Assembly: GCF_026212465.1 (NCBI RefSeq)
Contig: NC_080063.1
Coordinates: forward strand, 808,501 to 872,500
Length of the DNA: 64,000 bases
Source of the DNA: Amaranthus tricolor
Lineage: Eukaryota > Streptophyta > Magnoliopsida > Caryophyllales > Amaranthaceae
Direction: 5' to 3'
The notes under the pieces are model-generated. The model worked only from the letters and a program-made list of their open reading frames with translations, searched no databases and was not told the DNA's origin. Shown here piece by piece: positions 1-59,795 of the stretch. Numbering within the stretch: position 1 is the stretch's first letter; each line of letters opens with the position of its first letter. The position numbers and the translations under genes were made by a program.

Positions 1-214
1 CGAAAGAACGATGAAGAATGAACAAGGATCAATGATTAATAAAGAATGAACGATGAAAAATGAACAAGGATCAATGATCAATGAAGAATCAACGATGAAG
101 AATGAACAAGGATCAATGATCAATGAAGAATGAACGATGAAGAATGAACAAGGATCAATGATCAATGAAGAAAGAACGATGAAGAATGAACAAGGATCAA
201 TGATCAGTGACGAA

Positions 215-3200
215 TGAACGATGAAGAATGAACAAGGATCAATGATCAATGAAGAATGAAGATTGAACGATGATGAATGAACAAGGATCAATGATCAATG
301 AAGAATGAATGATGAAGAATGAACAAGGATCAATGGTCAATGACGAATGAACGATGAAGAATGAACAAGGATCAATGATAAATGATTAATGAACGATGAA
401 GAATGAACAAGGATGATGAAGAATGAACGATGAAGAATGAACAAGGATTAATGGTCAATGATGAATGAACGATGAATAATGAACAAGGATCAATGATCAA
501 TGAAGAATGAACGATGAAGAATGAATAAGGATGAATGATTAATGAAGAATGAACAATGAAAAATGAACAATGATCAATGATCAATGATTAATGAACGATG
601 AAGAATGCACAAGGATGAATGATCAATGAAGAATGAACGATGAAGAATGAACAAGGATCAATGTTAATTGAAGAATGAACGATGTAGAATGAACAAGGAT
701 CAATGATCAATGAAGAATGAAAGATGAAGAATGAACAAGGATTAATGGTCAATGACGAAAGAACGATGAAGAATGAACAAGGATCAATGATTAATAAAGA
801 ATGAACGATGAAAAATGAACAAGGATCAATGATCAATGAAGAATGAACGATGAAGAATGAACAAGGATCAATGATCAATGAAGAATGAACGATGAAGAAT
901 GAACAAGGATCAATGATCAATGAAGAAAGAACGATGAAGAATGAACAAGGATCAATGATCAGTGACGAATGAACGATGAAGAATGAACAAGGATCAATGA
1001 TCAATGAAGAATGAAGATTGAACGATGAAGAATGAACAAGGATCAATGATCAATGAAGAATGAACGATGAAGAATGAACAAGGATCAATGGTCAATGACG
1101 AATGAACGATGAAGAATGAACAAGGATCAATGATCAATGATTAATGAACGATGAAGAATGCACAAGGATGAATGATCAATGAAGAATGAACGATGAAGAA
1201 TGAACAAGGATCAATGTTAATTGAAGAATGAACGATGTAGAATGAACAAGGATCAATGATCAATGAAGAATAAATGATGAAGAATGAACAAGGATCAATG
1301 GTCAATGACGAATGAACGATGAAGAATGAACAAGGATCAATGATCAATGAAGAATGAACGATGAAGAATGAACAAGGATCAATGATCAATGAAGAATGAA
1401 AGATGAAGAATGAACAAGGATTAATGGTCAATGACGAAAGAACGATGAAGAATGAACAAGGATCAATGATTAATAAAGAATGAACGATGAAAAATGAACA
1501 AGGATCAATGATCAATGAAGAATGAACGATGAAGAATGAACAAGGATCAATGATCAATGAAGAATGAACGATGAAGAATGAACAAGGATCAATGATCAAT
1601 GAAGAAAGAACGATGAAGAATGAACAAGGATCAATGATCAGTGACGAATGAACGATGAAGAATGAACAAGGATCAATGATCAATGAAGAATGAAGATTGA
1701 ACGATGAAGAATGAACAAGGATCAATGATCAATGAAGAATGAACGATGAAGAATGAACAAGGATCAATGGTCAATGACGAATGAACGATGAAGAATGAAC
1801 AAGGATCAATGATCAATGAAGAATGAACGATGAAGAATGAACAAGGATCAATGATCAATGAAGAATGAACGATGAAGAATGAACAAGGATCAATGATCAA
1901 TGAAGAAAGAACGATGAAGAATGAACAAGGATCAATGATCAGTGACGAATGAACGATGAAGAATGAACAAGGATCAATGATCAATGAAGAATGAAGATTG
2001 AACGATGAAGAATGAACAAGGATCAATGATCAATGAAGAATGAATGATGAAGAATGAACAAGGATCAATGGTCAATGACGAATGAACGATGAAGAATGAA
2101 CAAGGATTAATGGTCAATGATGAATGAACGATGAATAATGAACAAGGATCAATGATCAATGAAGAATGAACGATGAAGAATTAACAAGGATCAATGGTCA
2201 ATGACGAATGAACGATGAAGAATGAACAAGGATCAATGATCAATGATTAATGAACGATGAAGAATGCACAAGGATGAATGATCAATGAAGAATGAACGAT
2301 GAAGAATGAACAAGGATCAATGTTAATTGAAGAATGAACGATGAAGAATCAACAAGGATCAATGATCAATGAAGAATGAAGATTGAACGATGATGAATGA
2401 ACAAGGATCAATGATCAATGAAGAATGAATGATGAAGAATGAACAAGGATCAATGGTCAATGATGAATGAACGATGAAGAATGAACAAGGATCAATGATC
2501 AATGATTAATGAACGATGAAGAATGAACAAGGATGATGAAGAATGAACGATGAAGAATGAACAAGGATTAATGGTCAATGATGAATGAACGATGAATAAT
2601 GAACAAGGATCAATGATCAATGAAGAATGAACGATGAAGAATGAATAAGGATGAATGATTAATGAAGAATGAACAATGAAAAATGAACAATGATCAATGA
2701 TCAATGATTAATGAACGATGAAGAATGCACAAGGATGAATGATCAATGAAGAATGAACGATGAAGAATGAACAAGGATCAATGTTAATTGAAGAATGAAC
2801 GATGTAGAATGAACAAGGATCAATGATCAATGAAGAATGAAAGATGAAGAATGAACAAGGATTAATGGTCAATGACGAAAGAACGATGAAGAATGAACAA
2901 GGATCAATGATTAATAAAGAATGAACGATGAAAAATGAACAAGGATCAATGATCAATGAAGAATGAACGATGAAGAATGAACAAGGATCAATGATCAATG
3001 AAGAATGAACGATGAAGAATGAACAAGGATCAATGATCAATGAAGAAAGAACGATGAAGAATGAACAAGGATCAATGATCAGTGACGAATGAACGATGAA
3101 GAATGAACAAGGATCAATGATCAATGAAGAATGAAGATTGAACGATGAAGAATGAACAAGGATCAATGATCAATGAAGAATGAACGATGAAGAATGAACA

Positions 3201-4226
3201 AGGATCAATGGTCAATGACGAATGAACGATGAAGAATGAACAAGGATCAATGATCAATGATTAATGAACGATGAAGAATGCACAAGGATGAATGATCAAT
3301 GAAGAATGAACGATGAAGAATGAACAAGGATCAATGTTAATTGAAGAATGAACGATGTAGAATGAACAAGGATCAATGATCAATGAAGAATAAATGATGA
3401 AGAATGAACAAGGATCAATGGTCAATGACGAATGAACGATGAAGAATGAACAAGGATCAATGATCAATGAAGAATGAACGATGAAGAATGAACAAGGATC
3501 AATGATCAATGAAGAATGAAAGATGAAGAATGAACAAGGATTAATGGTCAATGACGAAAGAACGATGAAGAATGAACAAGGATCAATGATTAATAAAGAA
3601 TGAACGATGAAAAATGAACAAGGATCAATGATCAATGAAGAATGAACGATGAAGAATGAACAAGGATCAATGATCAATGAAGAATGAACGATGAAGAATG
3701 AACAAGGATCAATGATCAATGAAGAAAGAACGATGAAGAATGAACAAGGATCAATGATCAGTGACGAATGAACGATGAAGAATGAACAAGGATCAATGAT
3801 CAATGAAGAATGAAGATTGAACGATGAAGAATGAACAAGGATCAATGATCAATGAAGAATGAACGATGAAGAATGAACAAGGATCAATGGTCAATGACGA
3901 ATGAACGATGAAGAATGAACAAGGATCAATGATCAATGAAGAATGAACGATGAAGAATGAACAAGGATCAATGATCAATGAAGAATGAACGATGAAGAAT
4001 GAACAAGGATCAATGATCAATGAAGAAAGAACGATGAAGAATGAACAAGGATCAATGATCAGTGACGAATGAACGATGAAGAATGAACAAGGATCAATGA
4101 TCAATGAAGAATGAAGATTGAACGATGAAGAATGAACAAGGATCAATGATCAATGAAGAATGAATGATGAAGAATGAACAAGGATCAATGGTCAATGACG
4201 AATGAACGATGAAGAATGAACAAGGA
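215..4226 (+). repeat. 2,120-bp tandem duplication (215-2334 and 2335-4226)
   Basis: Positions from about 215 to 2106 match about 2335 to 4226 at a constant offset of 2,120 bp, with very few substitutions. An example is TGACGAATG near 341 against TGATGAATG near 2461. The order of variant monomers (34-bp monomer, GCACAAGG, GTTAATTG, AGTGACG, 49-bp monomer) is the same in both copies, so this is a duplicated block and not chance monomer similarity. The offset is 6 modulo 7, as expected for heptamer-based DNA holding one 34-bp monomer per unit. The edges are approximate, because neighbouring monomers are nearly identical. Confidence 0.85.
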
Positions 4227-4925
4227 TCAATGATCAATGATTAATGAATGATGAAGAATGAACAAGGATGATGAAGAATGAACGATGAAGAATGAACAAG
4301 GATTAATGGTCAATGATGAATGAACGATGAATAATGAACAAGGATCAATGATCAATGAAGAATGAACGATGAAGAATGAATAAGGATGAATGATTAATGA
4401 AGAATGAACAATGAAAAATGAACAAGGATCAATGATCAATGAAGAATGAACGATGAAGAATGAACAAGGATTAATGATCAATGAAGAATGAACGATGAAG
4501 AATGAATAAGGATCAATGATCAATGAAGAATAAATGATGAAGAATGAACAAGGATCAATGGTCAATGACGAATGAACGATGAAGAATGAACAAGGATCAA
4601 TGATCAATGAAGAATGAAGATTGAACGATGAAGAATGAACAAGGATCATTGATCAATGAAGAATGAACGATGAAGAATGAACAAGGATCAATGGTCAATG
4701 ACGAATGAACGATGAAGAATGAACAAGGATCAATGATCAATGATTAATGAACGATGAAGAATGAACAAGGATGAATGATCAATGAAGAATGAACGATGAA
4801 GAATGAACAAGGATTAATGGTCAATGATGAATGAACGATGAATAATGAACAATGATGAATGATCAATGAAGAATGAACGATGAAGAATGAACAAGGATCA
4901 ATTATTAATGAAGAATGAACGATGA

Positions 4926-4930
4926 AAAAT
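4926..4930. repeat. Target-site duplication, left side of LTR copy 1 (AAAAT)
   Basis: The five bases AAAAT precede the LTR and recur directly after it at 6170-6174. Removing the LTR and one AAAAT restores an uninterrupted monomer variant (GATGAAAAATGAAC), which is common elsewhere in the array. A 5-bp duplication is what Ty1/copia-type integrases leave. Confidence 0.9.
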
Positions 4931-5080
4931 TGTAGAAATACTAATGGATGATCGAATACAACAAGAGGGGGGGTGAATTGTTGTGTAGTAGGTTTAAGAT
5001 TTTTGCCTCTAATTTTTGCGGAATTATATTAAGTAAAGGACAAAACTTAAACTTAAAAACGAAAAGAATAATAAAAGAAG

Positions 5081-5143
5081 ACAAGGATTTTTACGTGGAA
5101 ACCTTCTCGGCCTAATAAGAAGGAAAAACCACGACCCCCCGGG
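5081..5143 (-). promoter_or_regulatory. Conserved U5-like block of LTR copy 1
   Basis: On the minus strand this reads GGGGGGTCGTGGTTTTTCC, then a short hairpin (6-bp arms CCTTCT/AGAAGG at 5102-5107 and 5118-5123, 10-nt loop), then GGTTTCCACGTAAAAATCC. A GTGGTTTTTCC...TTTCCACGTAAA block is familiar from the R-U5 region of plant copia-type LTRs, where it may serve RNA 3'-end formation. The motif is seen directly, the family link is from memory, and the function is inference. Confidence 0.55.
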
Positions 5144-5263
5144 ATTTCAAAATTCTCACTATGTTAAGGCAATCAATTACAATTACACATAACAATGTTT
5201 TGCTTCACTTGAAGCTTCTCAATACTCTAAACGCTTTACTCAAAGCTTCTCTACTTAGGCCCA

Positions 5264-5306
5264 CTTCTCTTCTCTTCTCTTGTCTTCTCTTCTCTTCTCT
5301 TCTCTC
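5264..5306. repeat. Pentanucleotide (TTCTC)n microsatellite inside LTR copy 1
   Basis: A pyrimidine tract built from about eight TTCTC/CTTCT units, with one interruption (TTGTC). On the LTR sense strand it is a GAGAA-rich purine tract downstream of the presumed transcription start, so it would lie in the transcribed leader. The second LTR copy has the same number of units. Confidence 0.85.
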
Positions 5307-5540
5307 GTTTCTATTCTCTATTCCCTTAGACTTCCCATAAGTCTAATTACAACAAAACACTCAAATACCCTTTACAAGGCCATTTCTCAAGAGGATAAGA
5401 ATTAAAATAATTACTTAAGAAAAATATAATAAATTAATTGGCATTGGAAAACTGAAAATATTTTTCTTAAGATGATCTCTCTTTAATGGACACTCTTGAA
5501 TCCTAAAAGGATTGATTTTTGATTCGAGCAAAGTCCCTTC

Positions 5541-5548
5541 TATTTATA
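5541..5548 (-). promoter_or_regulatory. TATA box of LTR copy 1
   Basis: The minus strand reads CTCTATAAATAGAAGGG here, a near-perfect plant TATA box and the only strong one in the element. Transcription would start about 30 bp downstream, near 5510-5516, and proceed towards lower coordinates, out of the LTR into the satellite and along its pyrimidine-rich strand. Activity is not known. Confidence 0.7.
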
Positions 5549-5772
5549 GAGGGAAATGCCAGCAGTTACCATAAGCATAACGTCCACTATCTCACACATA
5601 CCTCCACTACCCCCACATTCTCAAAACAAAAGGTGGTGGAATTATGAAAGTGTACGGCTGTTATTTGCTCAAGGAAAAATCAGTTTCCTTAATGCTAAAA
5701 ATAGCATAGGAGTTTAAAACATAAGATCCTAAAAAATAGGAGATCTAAATCTAATTAAGAAAAAGTCTTGGG

Positions 5773-5797
5773 CTATTTTTAGAAAACCTAAAAATAG
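5773..5797. repeat. Perfect inverted repeat in U3 of LTR copy 1
   Basis: CTATTTTTAG (5773-5782) and its exact reverse complement CTAAAAATAG (5788-5797) are separated by five bases. A related GCTAAAAATAGC lies near 5694-5705. The hairpin is about 230 bp upstream of the TATA box on the minus strand. A regulatory role is possible but unproven. Confidence 0.7.
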
Positions 5798-5924
5798 ATT
5801 TGCCAATTAACTTACTAATTAATTTAAGCAATTAAATTAATTCTAAACCATTACATCAACTTAAAAACAGAAAATAATTAATTCGCAATTTTTTCAGTCG
5901 ATGCTATTCTTCAGACCTGCTACG

Positions 5925-5996
5925 TAGGAACAGTGTACTGTCTCCAGCTTCAACTTTCGTCAGAACTTCAACTCTAGGAACAGCAGACTGTTTTCC
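5925..5996 (-). promoter_or_regulatory. U3 direct repeat of a dyad-like motif, LTR copy 1
   Basis: TAGGAACAGTGTACTGT (from 5925) and TAGGAACAGCAGACTGT (from 5975) are two diverged copies of one motif 50 bp apart. The first has a clear dyad (ACAGT-GT-ACTGT) and the second keeps its outer bases. They lie about 380-450 bp upstream of the TATA box on the minus strand. Repeated U3 boxes act as enhancers in some plant copia elements such as Tnt1; applying that here is inference. Confidence 0.45.
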
Positions 5997-6169
5997 AAAG
6001 CAATTGCCCAACTTCTTGGATATTTGAGACATGTACTTCTTCCACGAATCAAGTCATAGGCTTCATCAACGATTCACATTAAATCGGATATATACCTACA
6101 AAACAATCTCTAAAAATATGTTTGTTTATTTACAAGTGAAGTCATCATCAAAACCTTAAGAGGCCAACA

Positions 6170-6174
6170 AAAAT
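6170..6174. repeat. Target-site duplication, right side of LTR copy 1 (AAAAT)
   Basis: This is the partner of 4926-4930. The satellite resumes exactly where the monomer was broken (AAAATGAACAAGGATC), which fixes the LTR end at 6169. Confidence 0.9.
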
Positions 6175-9162
6175 GAACAAGGATCAATGATCAATGAAGA
6201 ATGAACGATGAAGAATGAACAAGGATCAATGATCAATGAAGAATGAACGATGAAGAATGAACAAGGATCAATGATCAATGAAGAAAGAACGATGAAAATG
6301 AACAAGGATCAATGATCAGTGACGAATGAACGATGAAGAATGAACAAGGATCAATGATCAATGAAGAATGAAGATTGAACGATGAAAAATGAACAAGGAT
6401 CAATGATCAATGAAGAATGAACGATGAAGAATGAACAAGGATCAATGGTCAATGACGAATGAACGATGAAGAATGCACAAGGATCAATGATCAATGATTA
6501 ATGAACGATGAAGAATGAACAAGGATGAATGATCAATGAAGAATGAACGATGAAGAATGAACAAGGATTAATGGACAATGATGAATGAACGATGAATAAT
6601 GAACAAGGATCAATGATCAATGAAGAATGAACGATGAAGAATGAACAAGGAACAATGATCAATGAAGAATGAACGATGAAGAATGAACAAGGATCAATGA
6701 TCAATGAAGAAAGAACGATGAAGAATGCACAAGGATCAATGATCAATGAAGAATGAACGATGATGAATGAACAAGGATCAATGATCAATGAAGAATGAAC
6801 GATGAAAAATGAACAAGGATTAATGGTCAATGACGAATGAACGATGAAGAATGAACAAGGATCAATGATCAATGAAGAATGAACGATGAAAAATGAACAA
6901 GGATCAATGATCAAAGAAGAATGAACGATGAAGAATGAACAAGGATCAATGATCAATCAAGAATGAACGATGAAGAATGAACAAGGATCAATGATCAATG
7001 AAGAAAAAACGATGAAGAATGAACAACGATCAATGATCAGTGACGAATGAACGATGAAGAATGAACAAGGATCAATGATTAATGAAGAATGAAGATTGAA
7101 CGATGAAGAATGAACAAGGATCAATGATCAATGAAGAATGAACGATGAAGAATGAACAAGGATCAATGGTCAATGACGAATGAACGATGAAGAATGAACA
7201 AGGATCAATGATCAATGATTAATGAACGATGAAGAATGCACAAGGATGAATGATCAATGAAGAATGAACGATGAAGAATGAACAAGGATCAATGTTAATT
7301 GAAGAATGAACGATGAAGAATGAACAAGTATCAATGATCAATGAAGAATAAATGATGAAGAATGAACAAGGATCAATGGTCAATGACGAATGAACGATGA
7401 AGAATGAACAAGGATCAATGATCAATGAAGAATGAACGATGAAGAATGAACAAGGATCAATGATCAATGAAGAATGAAAGATGAAGAATGAACAAGGATT
7501 AATGGTCAATGACGAAAGAACGATGAAGAATGAACAAGGATCAATGATTAATAAAGAATGAACGATGAAAAATGAACAAGGATCAATGATCAATGAAGAA
7601 TGAACGATGAAGAATGAACAAGGATCAATGATCAATGAAGAATGAATGATGAAGAATGAACAAGGATCAATGATCAATGAAGAAAGAATGATGAAGAATG
7701 AACAAGGATCAATGATCAGTGACGAATGAACGATGAAGAATGAACAAGGATCAATGATCAATGAAGAATGAAGATTGAACGATGAAGAATGAACAAGGAT
7801 CAATGATCAATGAAGAATGAATGATGAAGAATGAACAAGGATCAATGGTCAATGACGAATGAACGATGAAGAATGAACAAGGATCAATGATCAATGATTA
7901 ATGAACGATGAAGAATGAACAAGGATGATGAAGAATGAACGATGAAGAATGAACAAGGATTAATGGTCAATGATGAATGAACGATGAATAATGAACAAGG
8001 ATCAATGATCAATGAAGAATAAACGATGAAGAATGAATAAGGATGAATGATTAATGAAGAATGAACAATGAAAAATGAACAAGGATCAATGATCAATGAA
8101 GAATGAACGATGAAGAATGAACAAGGATCAATGATCAATGAAGAATGAAGATTGAACGATGAAAAATGAACAAGGATCAATGATCAATGAAGAATGAACG
8201 ATGAAGAATGAACAAGGATCAATGGTCAATGACGAATGAACGATGAAGAATGCACAAGGATCAATGATCAATGATTAATGAACGATGAAGAATGAACAAG
8301 GATGAATGATCAATGAAGAATGAACGATGAAGAATGAACAAGGATCAATGATCAATAAAGAATGAACGATGAACAATGAACAAGGATCAATGATCAGTGA
8401 CGAATGAACGATGAAGAATGAACAAGGATCAATGATCAATGAAGAATGAAGATTGAACGATGAAGAATGAACAAGGATCAATGATCAATGAAGAATGAAT
8501 GATGAAGAATGAACAAGGATCAATGGTCAATGATGAATGAACGATGAATAATGAACAAGGATCAATGATCAATGAACAATGAACGATGAACAATGAACAA
8601 GGAACAGTGATCAATGAAGAATGAACGATGAAGAATGAACAAGGATCAATGATCAATGACGAATGAACGATGAAGAATGAACAAGGATCAATGATCAATG
8701 AAGAAAGAACGATGAAGAATGCACAAGGATCAATGATCAATGAAGAATGAACGATGATGAATGAACAAGGATCAATGATCAATGAAGAATGAACGATGAA
8801 GAATGAACAAGGATCAATGATCAATGAAGAATGAACGATGAAGAATGAACAAGGAATAATGGTCAATGACGAATGAACGATGAAGAATGAACAAGGATCA
8901 ATGATCAATGAAGAATGAAAGATGAAGAATGAACAAGGAATAATGATCAATGAATAATGAACGATGAAGAATGAACAAGAATCAATCATCAATGACGAAT
9001 GAACGATGAAGAATGAACAAGGATCAATGATCAATGACGAATGAACGATGAAGAATGAACAAGGATCAATGATCAATGAAGAATGAACGATGAAGAATGA
9101 ACAAGGATCAATGGTCAATGACGAAGGAACGATGAAGAATAAACAAGGATCAATGATCAATG

Positions 9163-12100
9163 AAGAATGAACGATGAAGAATGAACAAGGATGAATGATC
9201 AATGAAGAATGAACGATGAAGCATGAACAAGGATCTATGATCAATGACGAATGAACGATGAAGAATGAACTAGTATCAATGATGAATGAACAATGAACGA
9301 TGATGAATGAACAACGATCAATGATCAATTAAGAATGAACGATGAAGAATGAACAAGGATCAATGATCAATGAAGAATGAACGATGAAGAATGAATAAGG
9401 ATCAATGATCAATGAAGATTGAACGATGAAGAATGAACAAGGATTAATGGTCAATGACGAATGAACGATGAAGAATGAACAAGGATCAATGATCAATGAA
9501 GAATTAACGATGAAGAATGAACAAGGATCAATGATCAATAAAGAATGAACGATGAAGAATGAAAAAGGATGAATGATCAATGAAGAATGAACGATGAAGA
9601 ATGAACAAGGATCAATGATCAATGAAGAAAGAACGATGAAGAATGAACAAGGATCAATGATCAGTGACGAATGAACGATGAAGAATGAACAAGGATCAAT
9701 GATCAATGAAGAATGAAGATTGAACGATGAAGAATGAACAAGGATCAATGATCAATGAAGAATGAATGATGAAGAATGAACAAGGATCAATGGTCAATGA
9801 CGAATGAACGATGAAGAATGAACAAGGATCAATGATCAATGATTAATGAACGATGAAGAATGAACAAGGATGATGAAGAATGAACGATGAAGAATGAACA
9901 AGGATTAATGGTCAATGATGAATGAACGATGAATAATGAACAAGGATCAATGATCAATGAAGAATGAACGATGAAGAATGAATAAGGATGAATGATTAAT
10001 GAAGAATGAACAATGAAAAATGAACAAGGATCAATGATCAATGATTAATGAACGATGAAGAATGCACAAGGATGAATGATCAATGAAGAATGAACGATGA
10101 AGAATGAACAAGGATCAATGTTAATTGAAGAATAAACGATGAAGAATGAACAAGGATCAATGATCAATGAAGAATAAATGATGAAGAACGAACAAGGATC
10201 AATGGTCAATGACGAATGAACGATGAAGAATGAACAAGGATCAATGATCAATGAAGAATGAACGATGAAGAATGAACAAGGATCAATGATCAATGAAGAA
10301 TGAAAGATGAAGAATGAACAAGGATTAATGGTCAATGACGAAAGAACGATGAAGAATGAACAAGGATCAATGATTAATAAAGAATGAACGATGAAAAATG
10401 AACAAGGATCAATGATCAATGAAGAATGAACGATGAAGAATGAACAAGGATCAATGATCAATGAAGAATGAACGATGAAGAATGAACAAGGATCAATGAT
10501 CAATGAAGAAAGAACGATGAAGAATGAACAAGGATCAATGATCAGTGACGATTGAACGATGAAGAATGAACAAGGATCAATGATCAATGAAGAATGAAGA
10601 TTGAACGATGAAGAATGAACAAGGATCAATGATCAATGAAGAATGAACGATGAAGAATTAACAAGGATCAATGGTCAATGACGAATGAACGATGAAGAAT
10701 GAACAAGGATCAATGATCAATGATTAATGAACGATGAAGAATGCACGAGGATGAATGATCAATGAAGAATGAACGATGAAGAATGAACAAGGATCAATGT
10801 TAATTGAAGAATGAACGAGGAAGAATGAACAAGGATCAATGATCAATGAAGAATAAATGATGAAGAATGAACAAGGTTCAATGGTCAATGACGAATGAAC
10901 GATGAAGAATGAACAAGGATCAATGATCAATGAAGAATGAACGATGAAGAATGAACAAGGATCAATGATCAATGAAGAATGAAAGATGAAGAATGAACAA
11001 GGATTAATGGTCAATGACGAAAGAACGATGAAGAATGAACAAGGATCAATGATTAATAAAGAATGAACGATGAAAAATGAACAAGGATCAATGATCAATG
11101 AAGAATGAACGATGAAGAATGAACAAGGATCAATGATCAATGAAGAATGAACGATGAAGAATGAACAAGGATCAATGATCAATGAAGAAAGAACGATGAA
11201 GAATGAACAAGGATCAATGATCAGTGACGAATGAACGATGAAGAATGAACAAGGATCAATGATCAATGAAGAATGAAGATTGAACGATGATGAATGAACA
11301 AGGATCAATGATCAATGAAGAATGAATGATGAAGAATGAACAAGGATCAATGGTCAATGAAGAATGAACGATGAAGAATGAACAGGGATGAATGATCAAT
11401 GAAGAATGAACGATGAAGCATGAACAAGGATCTATGATCAATGACGAATGAACGATGAAGAATGAACTAGTATCAATGATCAATGAACAATGAACGATGA
11501 TGAATGAACAACGATCAATGATCAATTAAGAATGAACGATGAAGAATGAACAAGGATCAATGATCAATGAAGAATGAACGATGAAGAATGAATAAGGATC
11601 AATGATCAATGAAGATTGAACGATGAAGAATGAATAAGGATCAATGATCAATGAAGATTGAACGATGAAGAATGAACAAGGATTAATGGTCAATGACGAA
11701 TGAACGATGAAGAATGAACAAGGATCAATGATCAATGAAGAATTAACGATGAAGAATGAACAAGGATCAATGATCAATAAAGAATGAACGATGAAGAATG
11801 AAAAAGGATCAATGATCAATGAAGAATGAACGATGAAGAATGAACAAGGATCAATGATCAATGAAGAAAGAACGATGAAGAATGAACAAGGATCAATGAT
11901 CAGTGACGAATGAACGATGAAGAATGAACAAGGATCAATGATCAATGAAGAATGAAGATTGAACGATGAAGAATGAACAAGGATCAATGATCAATGAAGA
12001 ATGAATGATGAAGAATGAACAAGGATCAATGGTCAATGACGAATGAACGATGAAGAATGAACAAGGATCAATGATCAATGATTAATGAACGATGAAGAAT

Positions 12101-36400: not shown

Positions 36401-36645
36401 ACAAGGATCAATGGTCAATGACGAATGAACGATGAAGAATGAACAAGGATCAATGATCAATGATTAATGAACGATGAAGAATGAACAAGGATGAATGATC
36501 AATGAAGAATGAACGATGAAGAATGAACAAGGATTAATGGTCAATGATGAATGAACGATGAATAATGAACAAGGATCAATGATCAATGAAGAATGAACGA
36601 TGAAGAATGAACAAGGATCAATTATTAATGAAGAATGAACGATGA

Positions 36646-36650
36646 AAAAT
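36646..36650. repeat. Target-site duplication, left side of LTR copy 2 (AAAAT)
   Basis: The same AAAAT as at 4926-4930. It was duplicated together with the LTR and its satellite flanks, so it does not mark a second insertion. Confidence 0.88.
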
Positions 36651-37889
36651 TGTAGAAATACTAATGGATGATCGAATACAACAAGAGGGGGGGTGAATTG
36701 TTGTGTAGTAGGTTTAAGATTTTTGCCTCTAATTTTTGCGGAATTATATTAAGTAAAGGACAAAACTTAAACTTAAAAACGAAAAGAATAATAAAAGAAG
36801 ACAAGGATTTTTACGTGGAAACCTTCTCGGCCTAATAAGAAGGAAAAACCACGACCCCCCGGGATTTCAAAATTCTCACTATGTTAAGGCAATCAATTAC
36901 AATTACACATAACAATGTTTTGCTTCACTTGAAGCTTCTCAATACTCTAAACGCTTTACTCAAAGCTTCTCTACTTAGGCCCACTTCTCTTCTCTTCTCT
37001 TGTCTTCTCTTCTCTTCTCTTCTCTCGTTTCTATTCTCTATTCCCTTAGACTTCCCATAAGTCTAATTACAACAAAACACTCAAATACCCTTTACAAGGC
37101 CATTTCTCAAGAGGATAAGAATTAAAATAATTACTTAAGAAAAATATAATAAATTAATTGGCATTGGAAAACTGAAAATATTTTTCTTAAGATGATCTCT
37201 CTTTAATGGACACTCTTGAATCCTAAAAGGATTGATTTTTGATTCGAGCAAAGTCCCTTCTATTTATAGAGGGAAATGCCAGCAGTTACCATAAGCATAA
37301 CGTCCACTATCTCACACATACCTCCACTACCCCCACATTCTCAAAACAAAAGGTGGTGGAATTATGAAAGTGTACGGCTGTTATTTGCTCAAGGAAAAAT
37401 CAGTTTCCTTAATGCTAAAAATAGCATAGGAGTTTAAAACATAAGATCCTAAAAAATAGGAGATCTAAATCTAATTAAGAAAAAGTCTTGGGCTATTTTT
37501 AGAAAACCTAAAAATAGATTTGCCAATTAACTTACTAATTAATTTAAGCAATTAAATTAATTCTAAACCATTACATCAACTTAAAAACAGAAAATAATTA
37601 ATTCGCAATTTTTTCAGTCGATGCTATTCTTCAGACCTGCTACGTAGGAACAGTGTACTGTCTCCAGCTTCAACTTTCGTCAGAACTTCAACTCTAGGAA
37701 CAGCAGACTGTTTTCCAAAGCAATTGCCCAACTTCTTGGATATTTGAGACATGTACTTCTTCCACGAATCAAGTCATAGGCTTCATCAACGATTCACATT
37801 AAATCGGATATATACCTACAAAACAATCTCTAAAAATATGTTTGTTTATTTACAAGTGAAGTCATCATCAAAACCTTAAGAGGCCAACA
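36651..37889 (-). mobile_element. Solo LTR, copy 2 (duplicate of 4931-6169)
   Basis: I compared this segment line by line with 4931-6169 and found no difference over 1,239 bp. The flanking AAAAT repeats and the surrounding satellite variants match too, for several kilobases each way. It is therefore a passenger of the block duplication, not an independent transposition. Sub-features sit at the same offset of 31,720: TATA box 37261-37268, U5-like block 36801-36863, TTCTC microsatellite 36984-37026, U3 hairpin 37493-37517, U3 repeated motif 37645-37716. Confidence 0.88.
37261..37268 (-). promoter_or_regulatory. TATA box of LTR copy 2
   Basis: Identical to 5541-5548: TATAAATA on the minus strand. 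If active it would drive transcription leftwards into the family I satellite. Confidence 0.7.
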
Positions 37890-37894
37890 AAAAT
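37890..37894. repeat. Target-site duplication, right side of LTR copy 2 (AAAAT)
   Basis: The copy of 6170-6174 at offset 31,720. The satellite monomer resumes directly after it. Confidence 0.88.
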
Positions 37895-40800: not shown

Positions 40801-41179
40801 GAATGAACGATGAAGAATGAACAAGGATCAATGGTCAATGACGAAGGAACGATGAAGAATAAACAAGGATCAATGATCAATGAAGAATGAACGATGAAGA
40901 ATGAACAAGGATGAATGATCAATGAAGAATGAACGATGAAGCATGAACAAGGATCTATGATCAATGACGAATGAACGATGAAGAATGAACTAGTATCAAT
41001 GATCAATGAACAATGAACGATGATGAATGAACAACGATCAATGATCAATTAAGAATGAACGATGAAGAATGAACAAGGATCAATGATCAATGAAGAATGA
41101 ACGATGAAGAATGAATAAGGATCAATGATCAATGAAGATTGAACGATGAAGAATGAACAAGGATTAATGGTCAATGACG

Positions 41180-44100
41180 AATGAACGATGAAGAATGAAC
41201 AAGGATCAATGATCAATGAAGAATTAACGATGAAGAATGAACAAGGATCAATGATCAATAAAGAATGAACGATGAAGAATGAAAAAGGATCAATGATCAA
41301 TGAAGAATGAACGATGAAGAATGAACAAGGATCAATGATCAATGAACAATTAACAATGAAGAATGAACAAGAATTAATGATCAATGAAGAATGAACGATG
41401 AAGAATGAACAAGGATCAATGTTAATTGAAGAATGAACGATGAAGAATGTACAAGGATCAATGATTAATGAAGAATAAATGATGAAGAATGAACAAGGAT
41501 CAATGGTCAATGACGAATGAACGATGAAGAATGAACAAGGATCAAAGATCAATGAAGAATGAACGATGAAGAATGAACAAGGATCAATGATCAATGAAGA
41601 ATGAACGATGAAGAATGAACAAGGATTAATGGTCAATGACGAATGAACGATGAAGAATGAACAAGGATCAATGATCAATGAAGAATGAACGATGTAAAAT
41701 GAACAAGGATCAATGATCAAAGAAGAATGAACGATGAAGAATGAACAAGGATCAATGATTAATGAAGAATGAACGATGAAGAGTGAACAAGGATCAATGA
41801 TCAATGAAGAAAGAACGATGAAGAATGAACAACGATCAATGATCAATGACGAATGAACGACGAAGAATGAACAAGGATCAATTATCAATGAAGAATGAAG
41901 ATTGAACGATGAAGAATGAACAAGGTTCAATGATCAATGAAGAATGAACGATGAAGAATGAACAAGGATCAATGGTCAATGACGAATGAACGATGAAGAA
42001 TAAACAAGGATCAATGATCAATGATTAATGAACGATGAAGAATGAACAAAGATGAATGATCAATGAAGAATGAACGATGAAGAATGAACAAGGATTAATG
42101 GTCAATGATGAATGAACGATGAATAATGAACAAGGATCAATGATCATTGAAGAATGAACGATGAAGAATGAACAAGGAACAATGATCAATGAAGAATGAA
42201 CGATGAAGAATGAACAAGGATCAATGATCAATGACGAATGAACGATGATGAATGAACAAGGATCAATGATCAATGAAGAATAAACGATGAAGAATGAACA
42301 AGGATCAATGATCAATGAAGAATGAACGATGAAGAATGAACAAGGATTAATGGTCAATGACGAATGAACGATGAAGAATGTACAAGGATCAATGATCAAT
42401 GAAGAATGAACGATGAAGAATGAACAAGGATCAATGATCAATGAACAATGAACGATGACGAATGAACAAGGATCAATGATCAATGACGAATGAACGATGA
42501 AGAATGAACAAGGATCAATGATCAATGAAGAATGAACGATGAAGAATGCACAAGGATCAATGATCAATGAAGAATTAACAAGGATCAATGATCAATGACG
42601 AATGAACGATGAAGAATGAACAAGGATCAATTATCAATGAAGAATGAACGATGAAGAATGAACAAGGATCAATGGTCAATGACGAAGGAACGATGAATAT
42701 TAAAAAAGGATCAATGATCAATAAAGAATGAACGATGAAGAATGAACAAGGATGAATGATCAATGAAGAATGAACGATGAAGCATGAACAAGGATCTATG
42801 ATCAATAACGAATGAACGATGAAGAATGAACTAGGATCAATGATCAATGAACAATGAACGATGATGAATGAACAACGATCAATGATCAATGAAGAATGAA
42901 CGATGAAGAATGAACAAGGATCAATGATCAATGACGAATGAGCGATGAAGAATGAACAAGGATCAATGATCAATGAAGAAGGAACGATGAAGAATGAACA
43001 AGGATCAATGATCAGTGACGAATGAACGATGAAGAATGAACAAGGATCAATGATCACTGAAGAATGAACGATGAAGAATGAACAAGGATCAATGATCAAT
43101 GAAGAATGAACGATGAAGAATGAACAAGGATTAATGGTCAATGACGAATGAACGATGAAGAATGAACAAGGATCAATGATCAATGAAGACTGAACGATGA
43201 AGAATGAACAAGGATCAATGATCAACGAAGAATGAACGATGAAGAATGAACAAGGATCAATGATAATTGAAGAATGAACGATGAAGAATGAACAAGGATC
43301 AATGATCAATGAAGAATAAATGATGAAGAATTAACAAGGATCAATGGTCACTGACGAATGAACGATGAAGAATGAACAAGGATCAATGATCAATGAAGAA
43401 TGAACGATGAAGAATGAACAAGGATCAATGATCAATGAAGAATGAACGATGAAGAATGAACAAGGATTAATGGTCAATGACGAATGAACGATGAAGAATG
43501 AAAAAGGATCAATGATCAATGAAGAATGAACGATGAAAAATGAACAAGGATCAATGATCAATGAAGAATGAACGATGAAGAATGAACAAGGATCAATGAT
43601 CAATGAAGACTGAACGATGAAGAATGAACAAGGATCAATGATCAATGAAGAATGAATATTTGAACGATGAAGAATGAACAAGGATCAATGATCAATGAAG
43701 AATGAACGATGAAGAATGAACAAGTATCAATGGTCAATGACGAATGAACGATGAAGAATGAACAAGGATCAATGATCAATGATTAATGAACGATGAAGAA
43801 TGAACAAGGATGAATGATCAATGAAGAATGAACGATGAAGAATGAACAAGGATTAATGGTCAATGACGAATGAACGATGAATAATGAAGAAGGATCAATG
43901 ATCAATGAAGAATGAACGATGAAGAATGAACAAGGATCAATGATCAATGAAGAATGAACGATGGAGAATGAACAAGGATCAATGATCAATGAAGAATGAA
44001 CGATGAAGAATGAACAAGGATCAATGATCAATGAAGAATGAACGATGAAGAATGAACAAGGATCAATGATAATTGAAGAATGAACGATGAAGAATGAACA

Positions 44101-49970: not shown

Positions 49971-50142
49971 GATCAATAATCAATGAAGAATGAAGATTGA
50001 ACGATGAAGAATGAACAAGGATAAATGATCAATGAAGAATGAACGATGAAGAATGAACAAGTATCAATGGTCAATGACGAATGAACGATGAAGAATGAAC
50101 AAGGATCAATGATCAATGATTAATGAACGATGAAGAATGAAC

Positions 50143-50254
50143 AAGGATGAATGATCAATGAAGAATGAACGATGAAGAATGAACGATGAAGAATGAACAA
50201 GGATGAATGATCAATGAAGAATGAACGATGAAGAATGAACGATGAAGAATGAAC
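50143..50254 (+). repeat. Two consecutive 56-bp (eight-heptamer) monomers
   Basis: Each has an extra GATGAAG-AATGAAC pair relative to the 42-bp unit. The two run 50143-50198 and 50199-50254, followed by a normal monomer starting AAGGATT. With the 28-, 35- and 49-bp monomers seen elsewhere, they form a ladder of heptamer multiples. Confidence 0.85.
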
Positions 50255-53200
50255 AAGGATTAATGGTCAATGACGAATGAACGATGAAGAATGAACAAGG
50301 ATCAATGATCAATGAAGAATGAACGATGGAGAATGAACAAGGATCAATGATCAATGAAGAATGAACGATGAAGAATGAACAAGGATCAATGATCAATGAA
50401 GAATGAACGATGAAGAATGAACAAGGATCAATGATAATTGAAGAATGAACGATGAAGAATGAACAAGGATCAATGATCAATGAAGAATAAATGATGAAGA
50501 ATTAACAAGGATCAATGGTCAATGACGAATGAACGATGAAGAATGAACAAGGATCAATGATCAATGAAGAATGAACAATGAAGAATGAACAAGGATCAAT
50601 GATCAATGAAGAATGAACGATGAAGAATGAACAAGGATTAGTGGACAATGACGAATGAACGATGAAGAATGAAAAAGGATCAATGATCAATGAAGAATGA
50701 ACGATGAAAAATGAACAAGGATCAATGATCAATGAAGAATGAACGATGAAGAATGAACAAGGATCAATGATCAATGAAGAATGAACGATGAAGAATGAAC
50801 AAGGATTAGTGGACAATGACGAATGAACGATGAAGAATGAAAAAGGATCAATGATCAATGAAGAATGAACGATGAAAAATGAACAAGGATCAATGATCAA
50901 TGAAGAATGAACGATGAAGAATGAACAAGGATCAATGATCAATGAAGACTGAACGATGAAGAATGAACAAAGGATCAATGATCAATGAAGAATGAACGAT
51001 GAAGAATGAACAAGGATCAATGATCAATGAAGAATGAAGATTGAACAATGAAGAATGAACAAGGATAAATGATCAATGAAGAATGAACGATGAAGAATGA
51101 ACAAGGACCAATGGTCAATGACGAATGAACGATGAATAATGAACAAGGATCAATGATCAATGAAGAATGAACGATGAAGAATGAACAAGGAACAATGATC
51201 AATGAAGAATGAACGATGAAGAATGAACAAGGATCAATGATCAATGACGAATGAACGATGAAGAATGAACAAGGATCAATGATCAATGAAGAATGAACGA
51301 TGAAGAATGAACAAGGATTAATGTTCAATGACGAATGAACGATGAAGAATGAACAAGGATCAATGATCAATGAAGAATTAACGATGAAGAATTAACAAGG
51401 ATCAATGATCAATGAAGAATGAACGATGAAGAATGAACAAGGATCAATGATCAATGAAGAATGAACGATGAAGAATGAAAAAGGATCAATGATCAGTGAC
51501 GAATGAACGATGAAGAATGAACAAGCATCAATGATCAATGAAGAATGAAGATTGAACGATGATGAATGAACAAGGATCAATGATCAATAAAGAATAAACT
51601 ATGAAGAATGAACAAGGATCAATGGTCAATGACGAATGAACGATGAAGAATGAACAAGGATCAATGATCAATGAAGAATGAACGATGAAGAATGAACAAG
51701 GATCAATGATCAATGAAGAATGAACGATGAAGAATGAACAAGGATTAATGGTCAATGACGAATGAACGATGAAGAATGAACAAGGATCAATGATCAATGA
51801 TTAATGAACGATGAAGAATGAACAAGGATGAATGATCAATGAAGAATGAACGATGAAGAATGAACAAGGATTAAAGGTCAATGACGAATGAACGATGAAG
51901 AATGAAAAAGGATCAATGATCAATGAAGAATGAACGATGAAAAATGAACAAGGATCAATGATCAATGAAGAATGAACGATGAAGAATGAACAAGGATCAA
52001 TGATCAATGAAGACTGAACGATGAAGAATGAACAAGGATCACTGATAAATGAAGAATGAACGAAGAAGAATGAACAAGGATCAATGATCAGTGACGAATG
52101 AACGATGAAGAATGAACAAGGATCAATAATCAATGAAGAATGAAGATTGAACGATGAAGAATGAACAAGGATGAATGATCAATGAAGAATGAACAATGAA
52201 GAATGAACAAGTATCAATGGTCAATGACGAATGAACGATGAAGAATGAACAAGGATCAATGATCAATGATTAATGAACGATGAAGAATGAACAAGGATGA
52301 ATGATCAATGAAGAATGAACGATGAAGAATGAACAAGGATTAATGGTCAATGACGAATGAACGAAGAATAATGAAGAAGGATCAATGATCAATGAAGAAT
52401 GAACGATGAAGAATGAACAAGGATCAATGATCAATGAAGAATGAACGATGGAGAATGAACAAGGATCAATGATCAATGAAGAATGAACGATGAAGAATGA
52501 ACAAGGATCAATGATCAATGAAGAATGAACGATGAAGAATGAACAAGGATCAATGATAATTGAAGAATGAACGATGAAGAATGAACAAGGATCAATGATC
52601 AATGAAGAATAAATGATGAAGAATTAACAAGGATCAATGGTCAATGACGAATGAACGATGAAGAATGAACAAGGATCAATGATCAATGAAGAATGAACGA
52701 TGAAGAATGAACAAGGATCAATGATCAATGAAGAATGAACGATGAAGAATGAACAAGGATTAATGGACAATGACGAATGAACGATGAAGAATGAAAAAGG
52801 ATCAATGATCAATGAAGAATGAACGATGAAAAATGAACAAGGATCAATGATCAATGAAGAATGAACGATGAAGAATGAACAAGGATCAATGATCAATGAA
52901 GACTGAACGATGAAGAATGAACAAAGGATCAATGATCAATGAAGAATGAACGATGAAGAATGAACAAGGATCAATGATCAGTGACGAATGAACGATGAAG
53001 AATGAACAAGGATCAATGATCAATGAAGAATGAAGATTGAACAATGAAGAATGAACAAGGATCAATGATCAATGAAGAATGAACGATGAAGAATGAACAA
53101 GGACCAATGGTCAATGACGAATGAACGATGAATAATGAACAAGGATCAATGATCAATGAAGAATGAACGATGAAGAATGAACAAGGAACAATGATCAATG

Positions 53201-56200
53201 AAGAATGAACGATGAAGAATGAACAAGGATCAATGATCAATGACGAATGAACGATGAAGAATGAACAAGGATCAATGATCAATGAAGAATGAACGATGAA
53301 GAATGAACAAGGATTAATGGTCAATGACGAATGAACGATGAAGAATGAACAAGGATCAATGATCAATAAAGAATTAACGATGAAGAATGAACAAGGATCA
53401 ATGATCAATGAAGAATGAACGATGAAGAATGAACAAGGATCAATGATCAATGAAGAATGAACGATGAAGAATGAAAAAGGATCAATGATCAGTGACGAAT
53501 GAACGATGAAGAATGAACAAGCATCAATGATCAATGAAGAATGAAGATTGAACGATGATGAATGAACAAGGATCAATGATCAATAAAGAATAAACGATGA
53601 AGAATGAACAAGGATCAATGGTCAATGACGAATGAACGATGAAGAATGAACAAGGATCAATGATCAATGAAGAATGAACGATGAAGAATGAACAAGGATC
53701 AATGATCAATGAAGAATGAACGATGAAGAATGAACAAGGATTAATGGTCAATGACGAATGAACGATGAAGAATGAACAATGATCAATGATCAATGATTAA
53801 TGAACGATGAAGAATGAACAAGGATGAATGATCAATGAAGAATGAACGATGAAGAATGAACAAGGATTAAAGGTCAATGACGAATGAACGATGAAGAATG
53901 AAAAAGGATCAATGATCAATGAAGAATGAACGATGAAAAATGAACAAGGATCAATGATCAATGAAGAATGAACGATGAAGAATGAACAAGGATCAATGAT
54001 CAATGAAGACTGAACGATGAATAATGAACAAGGATCACTGATAAATGAAGAATGAACGAAGAAGAATGAACAAGGATCAATGATCAGTGACGAATGAACG
54101 ATGAAGAATGAACAAGGATCAATAATCAATGAAGAATGAAGATTGAACGATGAAGAATGAACAAGGATCAATGATCAATGAAGAATGAACGATGAAGAAT
54201 GAACAAGTATCAATGGTCAATGACGAATGAACGATGAAGAATGAACAAGGATCAATGATCAATGATTAATGAACGATGAAGAATGAACAAGGATGAATGA
54301 TCAATGAAGAATGAACGATGAAGAATGAACAAGGATTAATGGTCAATGACGAATGAACGATGAATAATAAAGAAGGATCAATGATCAATGAAGAATGAAC
54401 GATGAAGAATGAACAAGCATGAATGATCAATGAAGAATGAACGATGGAGAATGAACAAGGATCAATGATCAATGAAGAATGATCGATGAAGAATGAACAA
54501 GGATCAATGATCAATGAAGAATGAACGATGAAGAATGAACAAGGATCAATGATAATTGAAGAATGAACGATGAAGAATGAACAAGGATCAATGATCAATG
54601 AAGAATAAATGATGAAGAATTAACAAGGATCAATGGTCAATGACGAATGAACGATGAAGAATGAACAAGGATCAATGATCAATGAAGAATGAACGATGAA
54701 GAATGAACAAGGATCAATGATCAATGAAGAATGAACGATGAAGAATGAACAAGAATTAATGGACAATGACGAATGAACGATGAAGAATGAAAAAGGATCA
54801 ATGATCAATGAAGAATGAACGATGAAAAATGAACAAGGATCAATGATCAATGAAGAATGAACGATGAAGAATGAACAAGGATCAATGATCAATGAAGACT
54901 GAACGATGAAGAATGAACAAAGGATCAATGATCAATGAAGAATGAACGATGAAGAATGAACAAGGATCAATGATCAGTGACGAATGAACGATGAAGAATG
55001 AACAAGGATCAATGATCAATGAAGAATGAAGATTGAACAATGAAGAATGAACAAGGATCAATGATCAATGAAGAATGAACGATAAAGAATGAACAAGGAC
55101 CAATGGTCAATGACGAATGAACGATGAATAATGAACAAGGATCAATGATCAATGAAGAATGAACGATGAAGAATGAACAAGGAACAATGATCAATGAAGA
55201 ATGAACGATGAAGAATGAACAAGGATCAATGATCAATGACGAATGAACGATGAAGAATGAACAAGGATCAATGATCAATGAAGAATGAACGATGAAGAAT
55301 GAACAAGGATTAATGGTCAATGACGAATGAACGATGAAGAATGAACAAGGATCAATGATCAATGAAGAATTAACGATGAAGAATGAACAAGGATCAATGA
55401 TCAATGAAGAATGAACGATGAAGAATGAACAAGGATCAATGATCAATGAAGAATGAACGATGAAGAATGAAAAAGGATCAATGATCAGTGACGAATGAAC
55501 GATGAAGAATGAACAAGCATCAATGATCAATGAAGAATGAAGATTGAACGATGATGAATGAACAAGGATCAATGATCAATAAAGAATAAACGATGAAGAA
55601 TGAACAAGGATCAATGGTCAATGACGAATGAACGATGAAGAATGAACAAGGATCAATGATCAATGAAGAATGAACGATGAAGAATGAACAAGGATCAATG
55701 ATCTATGAAGAATGAACGATGAAGAATGAACAAGGATTAATGGTCAATGACGAATGAACGATGAAGAATGAACAAGGATCAATGATCAATGATTAATGAA
55801 CGATGAAGAATGAACAAGGATGAATGATCAATGAAGAATGAACGATGAAGAATGAACAAGGATTAAAGGTCAATGACGAATGAACGATGAAGAATGAAAA
55901 AGGATCAATGATCAATGAAGAATGAACGATGAAAAATGAACAAGGATCAATGATCAATGAAGAATGAACGATGAAGAATGAACAAGGATCAATGATCAAT
56001 GAAGACTGAACGATGAAGAATGAACAAGGATCACTGATAAATGAAGAATGAACGAAGAAGAATGAACAAGGATCAATGATCAGTGACGAATGAACGATGA
56101 AGAATGAACAAGGATCAATAATCAATGAAGAATGAAGATTGAACGATGAAGAATGAACAAGGATCAATGATCAATGAAGAATGAACGAAGAAGAATGAAC

Positions 56201-59200
56201 AAGTATCAATGGTCAATGACGAATGAACGATGAAGAATGAACAAGGATCAATGATCAATGATTAATGAACGATGAAGAATGAACAAGGATGAATGATCAA
56301 TGAAGAATGAACGATGAAGAATGAACAAGGATTAATGGTCAATGACGAATGAACGATGAATAATGAAGAAGGATCAATGATCAATGAAGAATGAATGATG
56401 AAGAATGAACAAGGATCAATGATCAATGAAGAATGAACGATGGAGAATGAACAAGGATCAATGATCAATGAAGAATGAACGATGAAGAATGAACAAGGAT
56501 CAATGATCAATGAAGAATGAACGATGAAGAATGAACAAGGATCAATGATAATTGAAGAATGAACGATGAAGAATGAACAAGGATCAATGATCAATGAAGA
56601 ATAAATGATGAAGAATTAACAAGGATCAATGGTCAATGACGAATGAACGATGAAGAATGAACAAGGATCAATGATCAATGAAGAATGAACGATGAAGAAT
56701 GAACAAGGATCAATGATCAATGAAGAATGAACGATGAAGAATGAAAAAGGATCAATGATCAGTGACGAATGAACGATGAAGAATGAACAAGCATCAATGA
56801 TCAATGAAGAATGAAGATTGAACGATGATGAATGAACAAGGATCAATGATCAATAAAGAATAAACGATGAAGAATGAACAAGGATCAATGGTCAATGACG
56901 AATGAACGATGAAGAATGAACAAGGATCAATGATCAATGAAGAATGAACGATGAAGAATGAACAAGGATCAATGATCAATGAAGAATGAACGATGAAGAA
57001 TGAACAAGGATTAATGGTCAATGACGAATGAACGATGAAGAATGAACAAGGATCAATGATCAATGATTAATGAACGATGAAGAATGAACAAGGATGAATG
57101 ATCAATGAAGAATGAACGATGAAGAATGAACAAGGATTAAAGGTCAATGACGAATGAACGATGAAGAATGAAAAAGGATCAATGATCAATGAAGAATGAA
57201 CGATGAAAAATGAACAAGGATCAATGATCAATGAAGACTGAACGATGAAGAATGAACAAGGATCACTGATAAATGAAGAATGAACGAAGAAGAATGAACA
57301 AGGATCAATGATCAGTGACGAATGAACGATGAAGAATGAACAAGGATCAATAATCAATGAAGAATGAAGATTGAACGATGAAGAATGAACAAGGATCAAT
57401 GATCAATGAAGAATGAACGAAGAAGAATGAACAAGTATCAATGGTCAATGACGAATGAACGATGAAGAATGAACAAGGATCAATGATCAATGATTAATGA
57501 ACGATGAAGAATGAACAAGGATGAATGATCAATGAAGAATGAACGATGAAGAATGAACAAGGATTAATGGTCAATGACGAATGAACGATGAATAATGAAG
57601 AAGGATCAATGATCAATGAAGAATGAACGATGAAGAATGAACAAGGATCAATGATCAATGAAGAATGAACGATGGAGAATGAACAAGGATCAATGATCAA
57701 TGAAGAATGAACGATGAAGAATGAACAAGGATCAATGATCAATGAAGAATGAACGATGAAGAATGAACAAGGATCAATGATAATTGAAGAATGAACGATG
57801 AAGAATGAACAAGGATCAATGATCAATGAAGAATAAATGATGAAGAATTAACAAGGATCAATGGTCAATGACGAATGAACGATGAAGAATGAACAAGGAT
57901 CAATGATCAATGAAGAATGAACGATGAAGAATGAACAAGGATCAATGATCAATGAAGAATGAACGATGAAGAATGAACAAGGATTAATGGACAATGACGA
58001 ATGAACGATGAAGAATGAAAAAGGATCAATGATCAATGAAGAATGAACGATGAAAATTGAACAAGGATCAATGATCAATGAAGAATGAACGATGAAGAAT
58101 GAACAAGGATCAATGATCAATGAAGACTGAACGATGAAGAATGAACAAAGGATCAATGATCAATGAAGAATGAACGATGAAGAATGAACAAGGATCAATG
58201 ATCAGTGACGAATGAACGATGAAGAATGAACAAGGATCAATGATCAATGAAGAATGAAGATTGAACAATGAAGAATGAACAAGGATCAATGATCAATGAA
58301 GAATGAACGATGAAGAATGAACAAGGACCAATGGTCAATGACGAATGAACGATGAATAATGAACAAGGATCAATGATCAATGAAGAATGAACGATGAAGA
58401 ATGAACAAGGAACAATGATCAATGAAGAATGAACGATGAAGAATGAACAAGGATCAATGATCAATGACGAATGAACGATGAAGAATGAACAAGGATCAAT
58501 GATCAATGAAGAATGAACGATGAAGAATGAACAAGGATTAATGGTCAATGACGAATGAACGATGAAGAATGAACAAGGATCAATGATCAATGAAGAATTA
58601 ACGATGAAGAATGAACAAGGATCAATGATCAATGAAGAATGAACGATGAAGAATGAACAAGGATCAATGATCAATGAAGAATGAACGATGAAGAATGAAA
58701 AAGGATCAATGATCAGTGACGAATGAACGATGAAGAATGAACAAGCATCAATGATCAATGAAGAATGAAGATTGAACGATGATGAATGAACAAGGATCAA
58801 TGATCAATAAAGAATAAACGATGAAGAATGAACAAGGATCAATGGTCAATGACGAATGAACGATGAAGAATGAACAAGGATCAATGATCAATGAAGAATG
58901 AACGATGAAGAATGAACAAGGATCAATGATCAATGAAGAATGAACGATGAAGAATGAACAAGGATTAATGGTCAATGACGAATGAACGATGAAGAATGAA
59001 CAAGGATCAATGATCAATGATTAATGAACGATGAAGAATGAACAAGGATGAATGATCAATGAAGAATGAACGATGAAGAATGAACAAGGATTAAAGGTCA
59101 ATGACGAATGAACGATGAAGAATGAAAAAGGATCAATGATCAATGAAGAATGAACGATGAAAAATGAACAAGGATCAATGAACAATGAAGAATGAACGAT

Positions 59201-59787
59201 GAAGAATGAACAAGGATCAATGATCAATGAAGACTGAACGATGAAGAATGAACAAGGATCACTGATCAATGAAGAATGAACGAAGAAGAATGAACAAGGA
59301 TCAATGATCAGTGACGAATGAACGATGAAGAATGGACAAGGATCAATAATCAATGAAGAATGAAGATTGAACGATGAAGAATGAACAAGGATCAATGATC
59401 AATGAAGAATGAACGATGAAGAATGAACAAGTATCAATGGTCAATGACGAATGAACGATGAAGAATGAACAAGGATCAATATTCAATGATTAATGAACGA
59501 TGAAGAATGAACAAGGATGAATGATCAATGAAGAATGAACGATGAAGAATGAACAAGGATTAATGGTCAATGACGAATGAACGATGAATAATGAAGAAGG
59601 ATCAATGATCAATGAAGAATGAACGATGAAGAATGAACAAGGATCAATGATCAATGAAGAATGAACGATGGAGAATGAACAAGGATCAATGATCAATGAA
59701 GAATGAACGATGAAGAATGAACAAGGATCAATGATCAATGAAGAATGAACGATGAAGAATGAACAAGGATCAATGATAATTGAAGAT
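50211..59787 (+). repeat. 1,996-bp higher-order repeat, family II, about five copies
   Basis: Unit landmarks recur at 50211, 52270, 54266, 56262, 57494 and 59490. The spacing is 2,059, 1,996, 1,996, 1,232 and 1,996 bp. The first unit carries extra monomers around 50.8 kb (a duplicated block with GGATTAGTGGAC), the fourth has lost 764 bp, and the last is cut off by the inversion at 59787. Related but less regular units lie at 43783-45545 and 48208-50210. The full unit contains one 43-bp monomer (CAAAGGATC) and is 1 modulo 7. The 1,232-bp unit lacks that monomer and is 0 modulo 7. Confidence 0.87.
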
Positions 59788-59795
59788 AAAATCTT
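59783..59795. other. Inversion junction of the satellite array
   Basis: Left of here monomers run in the purine-rich orientation, and right of here they run as the reverse complement. The junction is a small perfect inverted repeat, AAGAT (59783-59787), AAA, ATCTT (59791-59795). The left partner is a GATAATTGAAGA variant monomer, and the right partner starts within an ATCTTTGTTCATTC variant. The right arm is not an exact mirror of the left, which argues against a simple hairpin-read artefact. Confidence 0.85.

Follow-up and report, generated by a model that had tools for sequence, protein, structure and literature searches.

A 42-bp satellite of Amaranthus tricolor of probable heptamer origin, and its likely turnover by monomers and blocks of monomers

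The window considered here, a 64,000-nt stretch of the Amaranthus tricolor genome (contig NC_080063.1, positions 808,501 to 872,500, forward strand), is occupied by two oppositely oriented arms of a 42-bp satellite. The plus-strand arm (1..59787), delimited with Tandem Repeats Finder (TRF) and a hidden Markov model (HMM), is a long head-to-tail array of one monomer: TRF reports a 42-bp period over 2-59786 with 87% matches, and of the 1,355 units into which the HMM cuts it, 1,242 measure exactly 42 bp. The minus-strand arm (59788..64000) is the same satellite inverted, recognized by TRF and by the HMM on the reverse complement. The consensus monomer, GAATGAA CGATGAA GAATGAA CAAGGAT CAATGAT CAATGAA, consists of six related heptamers, as had been predicted from inspection of the sequence, and the satellite region is about 67% A+T. 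That original prediction also made the heptamer the live unit of mutation, in an array keeping a 7-bp and not a 42-bp register. The results below point to the monomer, together with blocks of monomers, as the most likely live unit.

Periodicity inside the monomer exceeds chance, as expected if it derives from a shorter oligomer. Circular identity of the consensus peaks at lags of 7, 14 and 21, with a mean of 0.75 against 0.37 (SD 0.09) in 3000 approximate dinucleotide shuffles; 16 of the 3000 reached this value, or 23 when the other periods tried are included. In the array itself (1-59787, long terminal repeat (LTR) insertions included), identity is about 0.69 at lags of 7, 14, 28 and 35, 0.64 at 21 and about 0.87 (0.866) at 42. 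Coding was rejected as a cause of the register: there are six closed stop-to-stop frames of at least 250 amino acids, the longest of 349, and the 49-mers described below shift any frame.

Departures from the 42-bp phase were counted with a cyclic 42-state HMM, which charges the same penalty for every jump size, over 1-59787 after removal of both LTRs, each with one of its target duplications. It finds 113 out-of-phase sites: 81 of +7, 19 of -8, 6 of +1, 2 each of -1, +14 and -14, and 1 of +8. By this count the 7-bp register is real, 85 of the 113 being multiples of 7, and the result is unchanged at jump probabilities of 1e-6, 1e-4, 1e-3 and 1e-2 (at 5e-2 the +8 site splits into two jumps). When indels of uniform size were simulated in four arrays, 46 of the 445 recovered jumps were at 0 modulo 7 (true value 47 of 449, with 7 of the 449 not recovered exactly); this flat recovery means that the HMM is not the source of the bias. 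A 7-state HMM gives 28 off-register sites (21, 6 and 1), matching in number and size the exceptions originally listed, and the accompanying arithmetic for the heptamer AAGGATC (24 to 59765, the exceptions summing to 3 modulo 7) is correct. Among the monomer sizes that had been named, 28, 42, 49 and 56 bp are present; a 35-bp monomer was not found in 1-59787 with five anchors or by HMM cutting.

How many events do these sites represent? The 113 are copies of seven junction types (+7, -8, +1, -1, +14, -14 and one scar resembling end joining), all on the plus strand; they are not 113 independent events, and for the most part probably descend from a few old changes. The 81 copies of the +7 junction, which forms a 49-mer (first at 261, last at 59365), are all of a single type, reading GATTGAA in 80 and GATTAAA in 1, and are therefore counted once. 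The -8 junction (34-mer; 19 copies, first at 417, last at 39649) has one sequence in four neighbor contexts, 15 of the 19 lying in one of them. The remaining types are the +1 insertion (43-mer; 6 copies, first at 44352, last at 58147), a 1-bp deletion (41-mer) at 6293..6297 with a copy at 38013-38017, the -14 junction (28-mer) at 42567 with a copy at 46909, two adjacent 56-mers (+14 each) at 50142..50295, and the scar at 43653..43663. The two -14 sites are separated by 4,342 bp and the two -1 sites by 31,720 bp; these distances are both known as block lags, and each pair is therefore read as one copied event. An interpretation of the scar, at 43657, as a 49-mer plus 1 bp was set aside: compared with its reference, a copy lying some 4.3 kb downstream (lag 4,342 to 4,425), 86 bp are absent and a 3-bp TAT is present, for a net change of -83. 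The inverted arm has 8 out-of-phase sites of three types (five of -14, two of -21, one of -20); the HMM finds no 49-mers there, and the plus arm alone carries them. The 34-mers are confined to the left part of the plus arm (417-39649) and the 43-mers to the right part (44352-58147), and the array seems to comprise two higher-order repeat (HOR) domains that meet at about 40-43 kb.

Counted as types, multiples of 7 are still in excess. They make up 3 of the 7 plus-arm types, the other 4 being of other sizes (P = 0.065 at an expectation of 1/7), and 5 of the 10 types in both arms (P = 0.008), or 4 of 9 (P = 0.029) if the -14 of the two arms is taken as one event. The heptads bias sub-monomer indels moderately, and not as a rule: the idea that indels arise in heptamer units holds as an excess among distinct junctions, and is not supported for indels in general.

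Homology within the monomer offers a source for this bias. Exact homology was measured at each possible junction of the consensus, for every sub-monomer shift. Homologies of at least 4 bp occur at multiples of 7 only (18.0 of 18.0 distinct junctions), and the longest, 13 bp, is available at just two junctions, where the +14 and -14 types sit; homology can therefore account for the preference for multiples of 7. By type, consensus homology is 6 bp for +7, 1 bp for -8, 1 bp for -20 and 0 bp for -1. The homology argument favors a lag of 42 far more than any sub-monomer lag.

Above the monomer, the array is built of HORs. The 70 of 179 fixed-lag blocks that were listed have identities of 98.6-99.9%, compared with 0.866 at lag 42, and the longest block is 8,322 bp at lag 5,366 (19 differences, 99.8%). 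Another exact copy exists for 84% of 120-mers, and the segment pairs 1,000 bp or longer, which are redundant, add up to 199,383 aligned bases, of which 1,603 are mismatched. Equal 42-phases are joined by 1,189 of 1,189 segment pairs. All 11 of the HOR lengths quoted in the original prediction occur as fixed-lag duplications, with a phase difference of 0 modulo 42. Their agreement modulo 7 had been offered in support of the heptamer as mutational unit, and as a test of mechanism it is circular, because a stretch separating equal phases is necessarily as long as all the monomers lying in it, and any block of high identity would pair equal phases. The agreement checks the list of exceptions and does not test how indels arise.

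What differs between adjoining blocks is mainly whole monomers and groups of them. Lag changes of up to 420 bp were of 42 (5 places, including a pair copied at lag 5,366), 83 (1, the scar), 84 (2), 91 (2), 126 (19), 133 (2), 202 (12), 210 (1), 217 (19), 252 (1), 378 (6), 385 (1) and 420 bp (7), the places not being independent, as blocks are copied from each other. Changes of 91, 133, 217 and 385 bp are read as blocks containing one 49-mer, and those of 202 bp as a block containing a 34-mer. Where adjoining blocks diverge by no more than 1.5%, no lag change below 42 bp was seen, and the scan for small indels gave 0 at both 250 bp and 180 bp; of 24 small deletions planted as a control, 17 were recovered. 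The denial of a 42-bp register was thus wrong for exchange between blocks, since near-identical blocks differ mainly by monomers and multi-monomer blocks.

The block scan is blind to events with heavily changed centers, such as that at 50142, and flank tests were therefore run on loci of all ten types. Contexts were matched by 60-bp flanks with at most one mismatch each, and an event was called young-looking if it was in the minority among near-identical contexts. Five qualify, and four of them are not multiples of 7. The 1-bp deletion is found in 2 contexts and lacking in 49; the +1 insertion is found in 5 and lacking in 33. The scar occurs once, with 34 contexts longer by 83 bp and 37 shorter by 8 bp (48 and 3 at 120-bp flanks), neither size a multiple of 7. 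The -20 of the inverted arm is present in 1 context and missing from 7. The fifth, 50142-50295, occurs once, with 4 contexts shorter by 28 bp and 23 longer by 14 bp, a multiple of 7 either way. The +7 at 1016 is the majority state (58 with, 4 without), as is the -8 (16 with, 2 without). The plus-arm -14 has 2 contexts with it and 1 undeleted context, longer by 98 bp. For the -21 and the inverted-arm -14, no undeleted context of simple size was found at any flank length tried.

The most likely explanation, with a probability of roughly 0.83, is a hierarchical satellite: a 42-mer derived from heptamers, in which the monomer, with blocks of monomers, is the live unit. The heptad structure, the junction types, the lengths of consensus homology and the block duplications are direct observations; the succession of stages, the dating of individual events and the routes of recombination or repair are inferred, and may be pictured as follows. 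An ancient heptamer array (about CAATGAA) would have diverged and then been frozen as a six-heptamer, 42-bp monomer. The monomer array would have grown, and would still turn over as whole monomers, or blocks of several (679, 881, 1,560, 5,366 bp and longer), are duplicated and deleted, long homology keeping pairing in the 42-bp register. Sub-monomer indels would be rare and would arise in two ways: by ectopic pairing where internal homology is longest, which is only at multiples of the heptamer, or as commonplace changes of 1 bp or through end joining, whose size may be any. Amplified within blocks to tens of copies, a few such indels could make a 7-bp register seem pervasive. A more tentative extension, possible but doubtful, is that ectopic sub-monomer exchange still proceeds at a low rate at the two 13-bp homologies, with +14 and -14 perhaps of separate origin in the two arms; a satellite could in this way retain its founding heptad as a secondary register of mutation, set by homology, well after exchange had passed to the 42-mer.

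Several observations weigh against turnover by monomers and blocks alone. The excess of multiples of 7 among the ten types (P = 0.008) is one, and the event at 50142 another, being young-looking, a multiple of 7 and missed by the block scan. With 80-bp flanks the plus-arm -14 also looks young (2 contexts with it; 2, 10 and 15 longer by 14, 56 and 98 bp, the last two sizes representing one and two further monomers), so that 4 of 6 young-looking events would not be multiples of 7. For the -20, undeleted contexts number 7 at 60-bp flanks, 0 at 80 bp and 5 at 120 bp. When the block scan was loosened to 130-bp segments, 2 links of 7 bp appeared, each leading to 43056, and these fall where the partner has a 49-mer (33247, 30622). 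Homology fits imperfectly: the -21 type has 1 bp of consensus homology, a poor fit, the +7 type uses 6 bp where 9 are available, and the measurements were made on the consensus and not on local variants. Polarity was assigned by majority rule with no tree, and the numbers are small, with ten junction types of which five or six can be dated.

Another possibility is that the heptamer is itself the live unit, with slippage or exchange continuing to add and remove single heptamers and the 42-mer being only a familiar multiple. The 85 of 113 sites and 5 of 10 types at multiples of 7 are what this would predict, as are one or two of the five or six events that look young: 50142 and, if 80-bp flanks are used, -14. 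It appears unlikely nonetheless: 81 of the 85 sites are a single junction type, four of five or of six young-looking events are of other sizes, no 35-bp monomer was found, and block differences are mainly whole monomers. The frequent, independent gains and losses of a short unit that characterize minisatellite or microsatellite slippage are not seen. A less probable alternative still is selection on spacing, for example through phased protein binding or helical phasing, that purges out-of-register indels. Out-of-register types are indeed few (5 of 10), but off-register variants have been amplified and not purged (19 copies of -8, 6 of +1), homology alone predicts the bias, and 7 bp is not a helical turn. 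That the pattern is partly an assembly artefact, with reads collapsed, expanded or misjoined in a long tandem array, is equally improbable: extreme repetitiveness, duplicated blocks at 99.8% identity and the abrupt inverted junction at 59787 would all be consistent with it, but the arms differ (49-mers in the plus arm only; longest exact stretch in common, 172 bp), so that the inversion is no simple fold-back of a read, and a 6,014-bp duplicated block bears 16 scattered substitutions.

The two predicted LTR insertions were both recovered. Each is a solo LTR of 1,239 bp with TG...CA ends and no strand assigned, at 4931..6169 and 36651..37889, with 0 of 1,239 differences between the copies. Both are flanked by the 5-bp target duplication AAAAT (4926-4930 and 6170-6174 for the first), and 5-bp duplications are more usual for copia or gypsy elements. 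Each contains a CTTCT microsatellite (5264-5305 and 36984-37025), and their look might suit a flowering-plant source. The second copy lies within the block of 6,014 bp that recurs at lag 31,720 (3613-9626 and 35333-41346), whose 16 differences all fall in 4,775 bp of satellite and none in the LTR; by our own arithmetic, the chance of the LTR being free of differences is about 0.016. The satellite parts may have gained differences by conversion from other copies. The two arms of the array are unlike in sequence variants and in indel types. Orientation switches from plus to minus at 59783-59795, at a small inverted repeat (AAGAT-AAA-ATCTT), and the inverted arm (59788-64000) has a 2,507-bp period of its own at 91% identity.

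Growth of a satellite from a short oligomer has parallels elsewhere. Longer monomers of mouse, tilapia and sparid centromeric satellites are described as having grown from a nonamer by cycles of duplication and divergence (PMC5615363), and the mouse major satellite as a 234-bp unit of four 58-60 bp repeats (PMC8122249). The mode of growth would be alike here, with a founder of 7 bp and a monomer of 42 bp. The sequences of the nonamer-built satellites are presumably not akin to the present one, and CentC monomers of maize are longer than 42 bp. In CentC, HORs formed by adjacent duplication, loss of whole monomers through homology-mediated recombination and microhomology repair are reported, and similar modes would operate here; the accessible text does not mention a heptad substructure (PMC4806543). 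Human HSat1A (SAR) shares the 42-bp unit, assembled there from 17-bp and 25-bp parts at 77% A+T (PMC9909926), as against six heptamers and about 67% A+T. Membership in that family was rejected, since alternating 17-bp and 25-bp units are not seen: consensus identity is 0.48 at lag 17, with its peaks at the heptad lags. Cen-42 of Larimichthys crocea, as described in the text available, is a 42-bp centromeric repeat with a 168-bp HOR and LTR insertions (PMC12631908); the likeness is by description only, and its LTRs are ERV1, whereas those here have a 5-bp target duplication. Exact-pattern scans of the viral_contigs and genome_contigs collections gave 0 matches. A literature search, with most subscription journals outside its coverage, returned no 42-bp heptad satellite among the papers listed; the accessible part of PMC5895790 has nothing on 42 bp, and "42 bp" in that of PMC3290532 refers to an ATAC microsatellite.

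The Amaranthus array otherwise agrees with what is known of how satellites grow out of short oligomers. It illustrates why, in a higher-order satellite, each distinct junction must be counted once however often it has been copied, which here reduces 113 sites to 7 types, and how the length of homology alone could set a mutation register.

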